DNA from: Microvirga vignae
GTDB lineage: Bacteria > Pseudomonadota > Alphaproteobacteria > Rhizobiales > Beijerinckiaceae
NCBI RefSeq assembly: GCF_001017175.1
Contig: NZ_LCYG01000015.1
Coordinates: 62,001-126,000 of the forward strand
Length of the DNA: 64,000 bases
Direction of reading: 5' to 3'
Part shown: positions 514 through 52,289 of the stretch, piece after piece
Numbering within the stretch: position 1 is the stretch's first letter
How the letters are laid out: each line of letters opens with the position of its first letter
The notes under the pieces: model-generated
What the model was told of the DNA's origin: nothing
Seen by the model: the letters and a program-made list of their open reading frames with translations, nothing else
The model's database searches: none
Program-made: the position numbers and the translations under genes

Positions 514-666
514 AGAGCGTCGGACCCAAAAGTGGACTTGCACTTCTGGGATTGATCCGATGCTCCCTTCATAGAGCAGCGCCTCGTGCGGACCCGAAGG
601 TCCGCGTCAGCGACCCGATGGGCCACGTCAGTGAAAACCGGATTCACTTTTCCGCACGATGCGCTC
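514..666 (-). repeat. Family 1 double-hairpin repeat, long form (copy A)
   Basis: Inverted relative to the other intergenic copies. It carries the CGGACCCAAAAGTGG arm pair, a short AT-richer linker, then a second palindrome ending TTTTCCGCACGATGCGC. About 40 extra bases (GGTCCGCGTCAGCGACCC and neighbours) sit inside the second palindrome, as in copies D and E. Together with the following terminator it fills the 385-base gap between the left-edge gene and the adaptor gene; nothing else is seen there. Confidence 0.85.
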
Positions 667-5105: not shown

Positions 5106-5348
5106 TCAGTGCGGGATGATGAACCGCAGCCCATAGACGAGAACGGCGAAAGCCGCGAGGCTTGCGAGATAGATGAGCACGAACCAGAGCAGGCGCGTGC
5201 ATCGGACCCAAAAGTGGAATCCACTTTTGTGACCAATCCGATGCTCATTTTCTAGAATAGCGCATCGTTTGCTGCGAAAAACCGGATCCACTTTTTCGCA
5301 CGTTGCGCCGGAGCGCCTCTCCGGCGGACGATGGGTATCGGCTTGCAT
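5106..5348 (-). CDS. DUF2474-type cytochrome bd accessory microprotein with in-frame repeat insertion
   Basis: 80 residues. The ATG overlaps the cydB stop as TGATG, so it is the third gene of the cyd operon. The C-terminal 29 residues (LLWFVLIYLASLAAFAVLVY and on) form the single membrane helix typical of DUF2474, a family usually around 40 residues long and encoded next to cioAB. Residues about 15-50 are encoded by a family 1 palindromic repeat (5199-5306, 108 bases, exactly 36 codons) inserted without breaking the frame. No ATG or GTG lies between the repeat and the helix, so a product must read through the repeat. Whether the enlarged protein still works is unknown; it could be a decaying gene. 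Confidence 0.7.
   Translation of the reverse strand: MQADTHRPPERRSGATCEKVDPVFRSKRCAILENEHRIGHKSGFHFWVRCTRLLWFVLIYLASLAAFAVLVYGLRFIIPH
5199..5306 (-). repeat. Family 1 double-hairpin repeat inside a coding sequence (copy B)
   Basis: Read on the minus strand: GTGCGAAAAAGTGGATCCGG and its partner arm, a linker, then CACAAAAGTGGATTCCACTTTTGGGTCCGATGC. It is the same architecture as the intergenic copies, with a length divisible by three, and lies wholly within the DUF2474 frame. Confidence 0.9.
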
Positions 5349-6397
5349 CAGTGATATCCGTAGCCGCCGCCCTGGATTTCCTCGGCCACCTTTCCGCGGA
5401 ACACGTAATAGGCATAGGCCGTGTAGGCGAAGGTGATCGGCAGCACGATGGCAAAGCCCACGAGCGCGAAGAGCTGGGAATGCACGGTGTTCGCCGTGTC
5501 CCAGATCGTCAGGTTCGGCGGCACGTTATAGGGGAAGAGGCTGACGCCGAGGCCGAGATAGCCAAGGAGGAAGAGCGTAATCGCCAGAAAGAACGGTCGA
5601 TAGTGACGCCCCTCCTCGAGATCGCGAAACAGCCGATAGGCCGCGTAGGCCGTGATCAGCGGAATCGGCGCGAGAAAGGCGATATTGGGCCAGGAGAACC
5701 AACGCGTTTCGATCTGTCGTCCGAGGAACGGAACCCACAGGGACACGACGCCCATGGCGATGATGGTCGCGATCAGAAAGCGGACCGCTATGCGCCGCGC
5801 CCAGATCTCCAGCTCGCCCGTCGTCTTCATCACGCACCAGGTGGAACCGAGAAGCCCGTAGCCGCAGATGAGACTGATGCCGGTGACGACGCTGAAAGGT
5901 GTGAGAAAATCGAACGTACCGCCGGTGAACTGGCGCCCGTCATTGGCAAAACCCTGCACGAAGGCGCCGAGCACCATGCCCTGAAAGAAAGTGGCGAGCA
6001 GCGAGCCGAAGAAGAACGCATTGTCCCACAAGAACTTCGAACGCTCCGATTTAAAGCGGAATTCGAAGGCCACACCGCGAAAGATCAGCGCGATGAGCAT
6101 GAGGATGATCGGCACGTAGAGCGCCGGCATGAGCACTGCATAAGCCACGTGGAACACGGCGAAAAGGCCGCCGCCGCCGAGGATGAGCCAGGTTTCGTTG
6201 CCGTCCCAGATAGGTGCCACGGAAAACATCATCCGGTCGCGCCAGTTCTCGCTGCGCGCGGCCTTGAAGAGGATGCCGACGCCGAGATCGAAGCCGTCGA
6301 CGATCACATACATGGCCACCGCCACCGCGATCAGCCCCGCCCAGATCAGCGGCAGCCAGAAGGCGAGACCTTCGTATTCGTTGCCAAACCCGAACAT
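5348..6397 (-). CDS. cydB: Cytochrome bd-type quinol oxidase subunit II (CioB-like)
   Basis: 349 residues from the ATG at 6397, preceded by a strong GGAGGGAG site; longer upstream frames lie over cydA and are rejected. Subunit II pairs with CydA to form the membrane quinol oxidase that reduces O2 to water with high affinity and without proton pumping. The N-terminal FWLPLIWAGLIAVAVAMYVI VDGFDLGVGI block is diagnostic, and about eight membrane helices follow. There are 10 bases between cydA and cydB, and its stop overlaps the start of the DUF2474 gene, so translation is probably coupled through all three. Confidence 0.96.
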   Translation of the reverse strand: MFGFGNEYEGLAFWLPLIWAGLIAVAVAMYVIVDGFDLGVGILFKAARSENWRDRMMFSVAPIWDGNETWLILGGGGLFAVFHVAYAVLMPALYVPIILMLIALIFRGVAFEFRFKSERSKFLWDNAFFFGSLLATFFQGMVLGAFVQGFANDGRQFTGGTFDFLTPFSVVTGISLICGYGLLGSTWCVMKTTGELEIWARRIAVRFLIATIIAMGVVSLWVPFLGRQIETRWFSWPNIAFLAPIPLITAYAAYRLFRDLEEGRHYRPFFLAITLFLLGYLGLGVSLFPYNVPPNLTIWDTANTVHSQLFALVGFAIVLPITFAYTAYAYYVFRGKVAEEIQGGGYGYH

Positions 6398-6407
6398 GCT
6401 CTCCCTC

Positions 6408-7844
6408 CTATTTCGCCGGCTGCGCCCGATGGCCGGGCCTGCCTTCGATGCCTTCGTCCGGCACGGAGAGCGGACGCTTCGGCTTCTTGGCGATATCGTC
6501 GCCGCGTATGTCTTCGACCGGATCGGGCCCGCGCCGCAGGAGCTTGGCGAGATAGTAGGAGCCGAAGCCGAAGATGAAGGCATAGACGACGAAGAAAGTG
6601 ACAAGCGATGTCGCGACTGCGCCCGCGGCCACGGGCGACACCGCATCCGCCGTGCGCAAGTGTCCATAGACCACGAAGGGCTGGCGACCGATCTCGGCGG
6701 TGAACCAGCCGAAGAGCACTGCGCCGAATCCCGAAGGAGTCATGAGCATCGTGGCGGTGAGAAACGGCCTGTTCGTGAACAGCGTGCCCTTGAGACGCAG
6801 ATAAAGACTCCAGAGACCGATGCCGAGCATCGCGAAGCCCAAGCCCACCATGATGCGGAAGGAGAAGAAGACGGGCCAGACCGGCGGACGATCCTCCTTC
6901 GGTACGTCCTTGAGACCCGGAACGACGCCATCATAAGCATGGGTGAGAATCCAGCTGCCGATCTTCGGAATGCCGATCTCGTAATGGTTCGTCTCCGCCA
7001 CTTCGTCGGGAATGGCGAAGAGGCGAAGCGGCATGTTCGACATGCGATCCCAGTTGCCTTCGATGGCCGCGAGCTTCATCGGCTGGTATTTCAGGACGCC
7101 GAGGCCATGCAGGTCGCCGATCACGATCTGGACCGGCACGAAGATGGCGGCGAACCACAGAGCCATCGAGAGAGAGCGGCGCGAACCTGCAAGCTTTGCC
7201 TCCGGTGCATCATGCGGATGACGCAGCAGCATCCACGCCGACATGCCGGCCACCGCGAAGGCCGTGGTGATGTAGCAGCCCATCACCATATGCGCGTAAC
7301 GCAGGGGGAAGGATGGATTGAAGACGATCTTGAACCAATCGACCGGCACCATCTTGCCGTTCTCGATGGCAAACCCCGTCGGCGTCTGCATCCAGGAATT
7401 CGTGGAGAGAATCCAGAAAGCGGAAATCAGCGTGCCCAAGGCCACCATGCAGGTGGCGAAGAAGTGCAGCCTGTCACCCACCCTCTCCCAGCCGAAGAGC
7501 ATGATGCCGAGGAAGGCCGCCTCGAGAAAGAAGGCCGTGAGGACCTCGTACGCCATCAACGGCCCTACGACGTTTCCGGCAATCTCGGAAAAGCGCGACC
7601 AGTTGGTGCCGAACTGATAGCTCATGACGATGCCCGACACGACGCCGAGGCCGAAGGAGACCGCGAAGACCTTCACCCAGAAACGGAAGAGGTTACGATA
7701 AAGCGGATTGCCCGTGCGCAGCCAGTTGAATTCCAGCGCCGCGAGCCAGCTCGCCAAACCGATGGTGAAGGCGGGAAAGATGATGTGGAACGCAATCGTG
7801 AACGCAAACTGGATGCGTGAGAGCATCAGGGCATCGAGTTCCAT
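6408..7844 (-). CDS. cydA: Cytochrome bd-type quinol oxidase subunit I (CioA-like, short Q-loop)
   Basis: 478 residues. It binds hemes b558, b595 and d and oxidises quinol at the periplasmic Q-loop. Visible ligands are His20 (AFTIAFHIIFPAFT) and His185 (RYAHMVMG), with the acidic pair Glu100 and Glu108. The signature GRQPFVVYGHLRT is present with Phe where E. coli has Trp. It is shorter than E. coli CydA (522), consistent with the truncated Q-loop of the CIO (cyanide-insensitive) class. It is first gene of the cydA-cydB-DUF2474 operon; no CydDC assembly genes are present. Confidence 0.96.
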   Translation of the reverse strand: MELDALMLSRIQFAFTIAFHIIFPAFTIGLASWLAALEFNWLRTGNPLYRNLFRFWVKVFAVSFGLGVVSGIVMSYQFGTNWSRFSEIAGNVVGPLMAYEVLTAFFLEAAFLGIMLFGWERVGDRLHFFATCMVALGTLISAFWILSTNSWMQTPTGFAIENGKMVPVDWFKIVFNPSFPLRYAHMVMGCYITTAFAVAGMSAWMLLRHPHDAPEAKLAGSRRSLSMALWFAAIFVPVQIVIGDLHGLGVLKYQPMKLAAIEGNWDRMSNMPLRLFAIPDEVAETNHYEIGIPKIGSWILTHAYDGVVPGLKDVPKEDRPPVWPVFFSFRIMVGLGFAMLGIGLWSLYLRLKGTLFTNRPFLTATMLMTPSGFGAVLFGWFTAEIGRQPFVVYGHLRTADAVSPVAAGAVATSLVTFFVVYAFIFGFGSYYLAKLLRRGPDPVEDIRGDDIAKKPKRPLSVPDEGIEGRPGHRAQPAK

Positions 7845-14374: not shown

Positions 14375-14484
14375 GCGCATCGGGCGGAAAAGTGGATCCG
14401 GTTTTCCGCCCCGAACGATGCGCTCCCTGAGGAAGAGAGCATCGGATGGATCCCAAAAGTGGTGTCCACTTTTGGGTCCGAGAC
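14375..14484 (+). repeat. Family 1 double-hairpin repeat (copy C)
   Basis: GCGCATCGGGCGGAAAAGTG with its partner arm GTTTTCCGCC...CGATGCGC, linker, then CATCGGATGGATCCCAAAAG against CACTTTTGGGTCCGAG. It lies between ispG and kup. Confidence 0.88.
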
Positions 14485-22998: not shown

Positions 22999-23147
22999 AG
23001 CGCATCGTGCGAAACCAGAGGTCCGCGTCATCGACCCGAAGGGCCACGTCAGCGAAAAGGGGACGCGGTTTTCCGCGATCGACGATGCGCCAGTTAAAGA
23101 GAAGCATCGGACCCAAAAGCGGAATCCGCTTTTGGGTCCGATGCTCT
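22999..23147 (+). repeat. Family 1 double-hairpin repeat, long form (copy D)
   Basis: AGCGCATCGTGCGAAACC, the extra GAGGTCCGCGTCATCGACCC block, the GGTTTTCCGCG...CGATGCGC arm, then CATCGGACCCAAAAGCGG against CCGCTTTTGGGTCCGATGC (perfect 17-bp arms). It ends 15 bases before the phaR stop. Confidence 0.88.
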
Positions 23148-25130: not shown

Positions 25131-25280
25131 CGCATCCGTGCGGAACCGGAGGTCCGCGTCAGCGACCCGAAGGGCCACGTCAGGGAAAAGGGGATCCGGT
25201 TTTCCGCGCCCAACGATGTGTTGTTTAAAAAGGGAGCATCGGACCCAAAAGTGGATTCCACTTTTCACGTTCGATGCTCT
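25131..25280 (+). repeat. Family 1 double-hairpin repeat, long form (copy E)
   Basis: It begins at the base after the phaA stop. GCATCCGTGCGGAACCGG, the extra AGGTCCGCGTCAGCGACCC block, GGTTTTCCGCG, linker, then CATCGGACCCAAAAGTGGAT with a right arm that diverges at CACGTTCGATGC. Confidence 0.86.
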
Positions 25281-29087: not shown

Positions 29088-29205
29088 GAGCACATCGTGC
29101 GGAAAAGTGGTCCCGGTTTTCCGTCATGAACGATGCGCTCCTCTCAAGAATGAGCATCGAATCAATCCCAAAAGTGCAAGTCCACTTTTGGGTCCGATGC
29201 TCGAG
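29088..29205 (+). repeat. Family 1 double-hairpin repeat (copy F)
   Basis: GAGCACATCGTGCGGAAAAG with GGTTTTCCG...CGATGCGC, linker, then CATCGAATCAATCCCAAAAG against CTTTTGGGTCCGATGCTCG. Confidence 0.88.
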
Positions 29206-31055: not shown

Positions 31056-31167
31056 AGAGCATCGTGCGGAAAAGTGGATCCGGTTTTCCGCATGAACGAT
31101 GTTCTCATTTAAGGAGAAAGCATCGGATTGGCCCCAAAAGTGCAAATCCACTTTTGGGTCCGATGCT
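31056..31167 (+). repeat. Family 1 double-hairpin repeat (copy G)
   Basis: AGAGCATCGTGCGGAAAAGT with GGTTTTCCGCATGAACGATG, linker, then CATCGGATTGGCCCCAAAAG against CTTTTGGGTCCGATGC. It ends 10 bases before the accA start codon, so it forms most of the accA leader. Confidence 0.9.
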
Positions 31168-52173: not shown

Positions 52174-52289
52174 CGCATCGTGCGAAAAAGTGGACCCGGT
52201 TTTTCGCGTCTCACGATGCGCTATTCTAAGAAGGGAGCCTCGGATCGAATCCCAAAAGTGCAAATCCACTTTCGGGTCCGAGGCTCTAG
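52172..52289 (+). repeat. Family 1 double-hairpin repeat (copy H)
   Basis: AGCGCATCGTGCGAAAAAGT with GGTTTTTCGCG...CGATGCGC, linker, then CTCGGATCGAATCCCAAAAG against CTTTCGGGTCCGAGGCTC. It begins within the DUF1178 stop codon. Confidence 0.9.

Follow-up and report, generated by a model that had tools for sequence, protein, structure and literature searches.

Background

Among the repeats with which the element described here can be compared, RIME (the Rhizobium-specific intergenic mosaic element) is built of palindromes. In Rickettsia and Wolbachia, palindromes of about 100-150 bp (RPE and WPE) lie in frame inside protein genes, in several genes and several species, according to the accessible text of three reports (PMC2229807, PMC3767692, PMC4224334). 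For RPE, the accessible text of one of them gives 19 reading frames (PMC2229807). The same text describes the CcrM-associated intergenic repeats (CIR) of Caulobacter: these are about 110 bp long, with two arms and a linker, GANTC at one loop and TA at the ends, are not intragenic, and have stops in all six frames (PMC2229807). A 2024 review, in its accessible part, calls CIR strictly intergenic and finds it conceivable that proteins have evolved by means of such inserts in other prokaryotes too, as they are known to have done in Rickettsia (PMC10969869). Other small non-autonomous repeats, namely ERIC, RU and Correia, have open frames fused to genes (PMC2229807, accessible text).

The gene concerned here encodes a microprotein linked to cytochrome bd. 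CIO-type cytochrome bd has a DUF2474/cydX-like subunit with a single helix, whose gene lies directly 3' of cydB (PMC5322542, accessible part). In Microvirga vignae, this gene carries a palindromic repeat. We consider it quite likely, judging from sequence, that a CIR/RIME-like repeat was inserted into the N-terminal tail of the microprotein, is read through and is tolerated.

A repeat copy inside the microprotein gene

The window is the whole stretch of M. vignae DNA that was analysed, 64,000 nucleotides long. The features concerned are as follows.

6408..7844, minus strand: cydA, cytochrome bd subunit I (PF01654, E 8.3e-169)
5348..6397, minus strand: cydB, cytochrome bd subunit II (PF02322, E 2.1e-89); its stop overlaps the microprotein start
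5106..5348, minus strand: microprotein ORF with insert, DUF2474/cydX-like, ATG start, 80 aa
5307..5312, minus strand: left junction TCCGGC (typical copies have the CTAGC end here)
5199..5306, minus strand: palindromic repeat copy, 108 nt, read as ATCEKVDPVFRSKRCAILENEHRIGHKSGFHFWVRC (profile match, model positions 1-106)
5262..5306, minus strand: arm 1 hairpin (RNA fold)
5245..5261, minus strand: linker between the arms (RNA fold)
5199..5244, minus strand: arm 2 hairpin with GATTC near its apex, about 5217-5221 (RNA fold, GANTC survey)
5196..5198, minus strand: right junction ACG (TCTAG in typical copies; AAG in G038, AAA in G017 and AGG in G021, three related species)
5109..5195, minus strand: conserved membrane helix, residues 52-80 (AlphaFold2 helix 44-77, and constraint)

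The ORF at 5106-5348 begins in a TGATG overlap with the stop of cydB. Its name rests on a weak Pfam match backed by the place of the gene directly 3' of cydB: PF10617 (DUF2474) is matched over residues 50-77 with 18.8 bits, below the curated cut-off of 26.6, and at E 0.01 the model is matched by 10 of the 25 proteins of our microprotein alignment (A1). The curated score for DUF2474 is thus not reached, while the single helix and the position behind cydB agree with membership. AlphaFold2, run on 25 sequences, gives the helix mean pLDDT values of 91 (residues 51-60) and 97 (residues 61-70); the blocks of the insert have 51-58.

The copy lies between the N-tail and the membrane helix of the 80-aa ORF; its gap-free alignment with the majority consensus of 54 copies of its own genome has 13 mismatches in 108 positions. 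Folded as single-stranded RNA it forms two hairpins and a stretch between them, with z -4.35 (-7.09 for the consensus). An in-frame palindromic repeat in a microprotein gene linked to cydB, as the initial annotation had it, is borne out by the ORF, the profile match and the relatives treated below. Compared with the 43-aa form of the gene, the net insertion is 111 nt or 37 codons, that is, the 108-nt copy and 3 nt more; a loss of 3 nt on the right side, common to the carriers, would account for the total. The YTAR signature of typical copies is absent from the junctions of the microprotein copy, which is a point against our explanation.

The repeat family

With high copy number in its own genome, the repeat is not a matter of chance. 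At least 50 matching rows came from scoring 40 of 194 first-look candidates, and at least 139 peptide matches in one frame from scoring 150 of 247. The consensus set holds the 54 copies that cover at least 85 model positions, taken from the window and from 36 stretches surrounding the closest matches; it consists of best matches to the microprotein copy and is not a random sample. Besides the copy in the microprotein gene, the window has seven more profile matches:

517-662, minus strand: repeat copy
14377-14481, 23054-23144, 25184-25277, 29093-29200, 31059-31166 and 52175-52284, plus strand: repeat copies

The majority consensus is 108 nt long and the 54 copies span 91-146, so that a length divisible by 3 is expected about once in three. 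Typical copies have YTAR-like flanks on both sides (CTAGC-GCATCG ... CGATGC-TCTAG). Terminal TA is common among the 54 (T/A at L-4/L-3 in 74/78%, at R2/R3 in 67/74%) and is absent from the microprotein copy. GANTC occurs in 26 of them, with a density of 5.1 per kb (the window has 1.84), and also in the consensus and in the microprotein copy; the apex pattern of arm 2 is seen in 18, and about half of the copies lack GANTC.

Is the repeat built to be readable? This suggestion found no support, since on each strand one frame is depleted of open copies, one is raised and one is near chance. Counted with 5-nt flanks, 20 of the 54 copies are open in frame '+0' (shuffles 16.8) and 14 in '-0' (17.7), both near chance. 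Depletion is seen in '+1' (6 of 54, shuffles 17.6) and '-1' (9 of 54, shuffles 18.0), and the raised frames are '+2' (24, shuffles 17.5, maximum 25) and '-2' (27, shuffles 18.0, maximum 29). With 20 of 54 copies open in '+0', the frame fit of a single copy is ordinary, and this too counts against our explanation.

The repeat is matched in 45 of 48 Microvirga genomes. A draw across Rhizobiales, in which up to 4 candidates were scored for each genome, gave matches in at least 17 of 199 genomes, M. vignae included; apart from one in G241, the matches listed outside M. vignae extend over no more than about one arm. Seventeen plasmid records match, ten of them from Microvirga, and those from Agrobacterium and Bosea match over one arm. 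Lone single arms occur in other Rhizobiales genomes (L236-L240) and on plasmids of Agrobacterium, Bosea, Sphingobium and Sphingomonas, in a mosaic-like manner. An Rfam scan of the 64-kb window at gathering scores gave zero matches.

The same site in related species

Orthologous cydB was found in 44 of the 48 Microvirga genomes, and the gene that follows it could be read in all 44; the TGATG overlap is present in 38. The next gene is free of an insert in 40 of the 44 species, 43 aa being its commonest length. In thirty-seven of these 40 the gene starts with ATG and encodes 39-49 aa, with exactly 43 aa in 22 of them; three (G018, G024 and G031) lack an ATG at the expected place. An uninterrupted homologue of about 45 residues, which the initial annotation expected in relatives, is therefore the ordinary state. 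The 49-aa protein of G001 was considered as a carrier and set aside, the repeat being absent by eye.

Four species carry an insert: M. vignae itself (G000, 80 aa), G038 and G017 (73 aa each) and G021 (54 aa). Their net inserts (111, 90, 90 and 33 nt) are each divisible by 3 and contain no stop; all four genes keep TGATG, and nothing interrupts the frame between this start and the last residue of the helix. The related species hold shorter, probably worn versions of the insert. The arm that is left in G021 (L007) carries changes that match each other on its two sides and it still forms a strong hairpin, as if it had been corrected or inserted as such. A separate copy lies between cydB and the microprotein gene of G039 (L034), where it alters the last CydB residues and abolishes the TGATG overlap; the microprotein of this species is 43 aa long and starts at an ATG of its own.

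One insertion or two

The insert may have entered this gene once, or it may have entered at least twice at the same nucleotide, in G000 and in the lineage of G017, G038 and G021. This is a question of history, not of mechanism. We take a single ancestral origin to be the more probable history; at least two independent insertions have an appreciable, smaller chance.

An rpoB tree of 12 genomes (G038, which gave no rpoB match, was left out) speaks for two gains. It places G000 and G030 with the insert-free G012, G028 and G036 (100/99), so that a single gain needs three losses. The distance to the consensus is 12% for the G000 copy and 32% for those of G017 and G038. Moreover, when the 54 own copies are ranked by similarity to the inserts of G038, G017 and G021, the G000 copy comes only 8th, 6th and 9th; with such ranks, likeness of the insert sequences is not decisive as proof of common origin.

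On the other side, the inserts of G000, G017 and G038 share position and spacing, given that a 21-nt gap is placed as aligned. All four carriers have A directly after GATRC, where the 54 own copies, the microprotein copy among them, have T (that of TCTAG) in 80% and A in 7%. Shared position and spacing together with this A favour one origin. A cydAB tree, which is linked to the site, joins G000 and G030 with the other carriers (87/90), and two losses are then needed. Loss is itself plausible: the kinase insert described below is missing in G036 within the rpoB clade, unless recombination is responsible.

The rpoB and cydAB trees conflict on the placement of G000 and G030, which hints that cydAB may have recombined. 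In G030 the sequence of the empty site is CGT ATC AAA CGC; in place of ATC, G012 has TCG, G028 GGG and G036 GGC. The GTATC of G030 is like the left terminus of the G038 insert, perhaps as a scar.

Selection on the insert and on the helix

We compared the nonsynonymous share of the differences (N share) with its neutral expectation; the counts are rounded and small, the pairs are not independent, and the rows of G039 were left out. In the insert, the N share is 69% for G038-G017, 79% for G000-G038 and 78% for G000-G017, where neutral values are 74, 77 and 76%. In the helix, where the neutral share is 73-74%, it is 33% for G038-G017 (p 0.05, borderline), 39% for G000-G038 (p 0.002), 29% for G000-G017 (p 0.0007) and 25% for G000-G030 (p 0.0006). 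When insert and helix are compared directly in their N:S counts, they differ in G000-G038 (p 0.011) and G000-G017 (p 0.006); in G038-G017 the difference is not significant (p 0.17). Pairs of the insert-free G012, G028, G030 and G036 have helix N shares of 40-56%, with p <0.05 in five of six, and cydB is constrained as well (dS 0.18 and dN 0.010 for G038-G017). The helix of G021 has N shares of 60, 56 and 62% against G000, G038 and G017 (p 0.21, 0.16 and 0.36), not different from neutral.

By these counts, the residues of the insert drift neutrally and the helix behind it is constrained in three of the four carriers, G000, G038 and G017. A neutral insert before a constrained helix means that the frame is probably translated and that the insert is tolerated, rather than that the gene decays. 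The simplest reading is probably that ribosomes read through the insert.

The initial annotation had left two courses open, a mobile element tolerated by the protein and the first step of gene decay. The former is upheld by the open frame and the helix constraint. The latter supposes that the insert disables the microprotein, which then drifts towards a pseudogene. An insert that nearly doubles the protein and places two hairpins in its coding mRNA might do so, and the helix constraint of G021 is not significant. Against this, the frame is open from TGATG to the end of the helix in four of four insert-bearing genes, and the helix is constrained between G000 and each of G030, G038 and G017 (25, 39 and 29% against 73-74%). 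Decay is thus unlikely as a general account: it is improbable for G000, G038 and G017, and possible in G021, whose helix shows no significant constraint.

Alternatively, translation might begin within or past the repeat, and the protein would then contain little or no repeat-encoded sequence. Candidate starts do exist in frame: a GTG at residue 20 in G000, a GTG at residue 41 in G017, close before the helix, and an ATG at residue 12 in G021. With the GTG of G017, translation in that species could begin past most of the insert, which again counts against our explanation. Yet these codons are not common to the carriers, and TGATG is kept in all four. G038 has zero ATG, GTG or TTG from the repeat to the helix. 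The same three codons are absent from G000 between the end of the repeat (residue 50) and the helix (from residue 52), in agreement with what had been noted initially, and its GTG lies inside the repeat, so that a start there still leaves about 30 repeat-encoded residues. We give a late start little credence. That the insert was co-opted, its added segment regulating or stabilising the oxidase, is highly improbable: four species have an insert, but its residues drift neutrally, its lengths differ, and G030 and G039 are without it.

In-frame copies in other genes

The microprotein gene is not the only one of its kind. In a Ser/Thr kinase (PF00069) a copy lies in the N-lobe, between GGMAQIWSVE and VMKFP (L161-L164), with 52 extra codons in G000, 35 in G030, 19 in G028 and 17 in G012; G036, G021, G017, G038 and G039 have no insert there. 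A close match to the kinase body was found in 37 of 48 genomes; the flanking pieces abut within a codon in 30, among them the five genomes just listed as having no insert, and are separated by the insert in 4, the N-terminal piece lying outside the matches listed for G042, G025 and G041. The kinase insert of G030 has CTCG at both ends, and CTCG also stands at the empty site of G021; on this comparison the repeated CTCG is a 4-bp target duplication. The copy in the kinase of M. vignae is a further intragenic one in the same genome, of the sort that the initial annotation proposed to look for. In G039, an in-frame copy lies between the CbiA and GATase_3 domains of CobB (L214, 1751-1858). It is absent in G000, G030, G011 and G017, which with G039 are all those with a listed CobB match among the ten genomes searched.

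A coding measure applied to the 54 copies of the M. vignae genome gave coding sequence on either side for the kinase copy alone; for the microprotein copy it did so on the downstream side only, and this copy is called intragenic because of the comparison with relatives and not because of this measure. Twenty further stretches were chosen for their long open frames and hence yield no intragenic rate. We did not class as intragenic those copies that border on a probable coding stretch or lie at one of its ends (L050, L056, L063, L065, L066, L067, L071 and L076, and also L205, L211, L213:3253, L214:499, L219 and L221). Near a contig end of G000, L203 1679-1807 could be a repeat-encoded C-terminal extension of a protein. 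In sum, by comparison of sequences, at least three genes of the genus (those for the microprotein, the kinase and CobB) have in-frame copies that are absent from relatives.

A possible course of events

On our reading of insertion, read-through and tolerance, a mobile two-arm repeat of a CIR/RIME-like kind, present in high copy number, would have placed a copy in that part of the cytochrome bd microprotein gene which encodes the N-terminal tail, this copy being open and fitting the frame by chance. Ribosomes starting at the TGATG overlap would read through it and make the 80-aa protein, in which the 37 extra residues are predicted to form a disordered linker before the unchanged membrane helix; in the cell, too, this linker may be disordered and without effect on the oxidase. 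Selection would maintain the frame and the helix alone and leave the sequence of the extra residues free. In time, the insert would shed blocks of whole codons, as G038, G017 and G021 suggest if the length changes run in that direction, and it may vanish (G030).

More broadly, we lean towards the view that two-arm repeats of the CIR type, which have been described as strictly intergenic, repeatedly give rise to in-frame insertions in proteins of Rhizobiales, an order other than Rickettsiales. Their cycle would consist of insertion at YTAR-like sites with a 4-bp duplication, neutral drift of the linker, erosion by whole codons and sometimes loss.

The bacteria of the genus in which insertion of this sort is now seen can be cultured, and the build of the repeat is one that has been described as staying outside genes. 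The gene is so short that the insert nearly doubles its length, and its orthologues hold inserts of different lengths. The cost and fate of such inserts become testable, as the accessory protein belongs to an enzyme whose activity can be measured.

Comparison with known systems

As a DUF2474/cydX-like CIO subunit, the microprotein has the same single helix and the same gene place; it differs in the 37 extra residues N-terminal of the helix and in its sub-threshold Pfam match.

In build the repeat resembles CIR. The consensus of 108 nt, the two hairpins with a linker and the TA at the ends are the same; GANTC is a less even likeness, with 26 of 54 copies having it and 18 showing the apex pattern of arm 2. 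Two things are different: the Microvirga repeat is intragenic in three genes, and 6 to 27 of its 54 copies are open per frame. The element is hence CIR-like in build and different in location, the two being compared by description. RIME, likened by description alone, is likewise a repeat of Rhizobiales, and single arms of the Microvirga repeat are also met elsewhere in the order. With ERIC, RU and Correia, again by description, the in-frame fusions are common to both, whereas build and hosts are other. In the literature searched, from which subscription papers were mostly out of reach, no intragenic copies of this element are reported in Microvirga or Rhizobiales.

In behaviour, the likeness is to RPE and WPE, and the parallel with Rickettsia drawn at the outset has held. 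The Microvirga repeat is palindromic and of high copy number (54 copies, hairpins, 45 of 48 genomes), and its copies lie in frame in genes that are unrelated and have orthologues without an insert (microprotein, kinase and CobB), and in several species. Order and genus are other, the genomes larger and the build two-armed. Against the 19 RPE frames given in the accessible text on Rickettsia stand at least three verified genes of one genus, Microvirga. In-frame palindromes are thus known from Rickettsiales; what would be new, if the analogy is sound, is their occurrence in a genus outside Rickettsiales and in another class of repeat.
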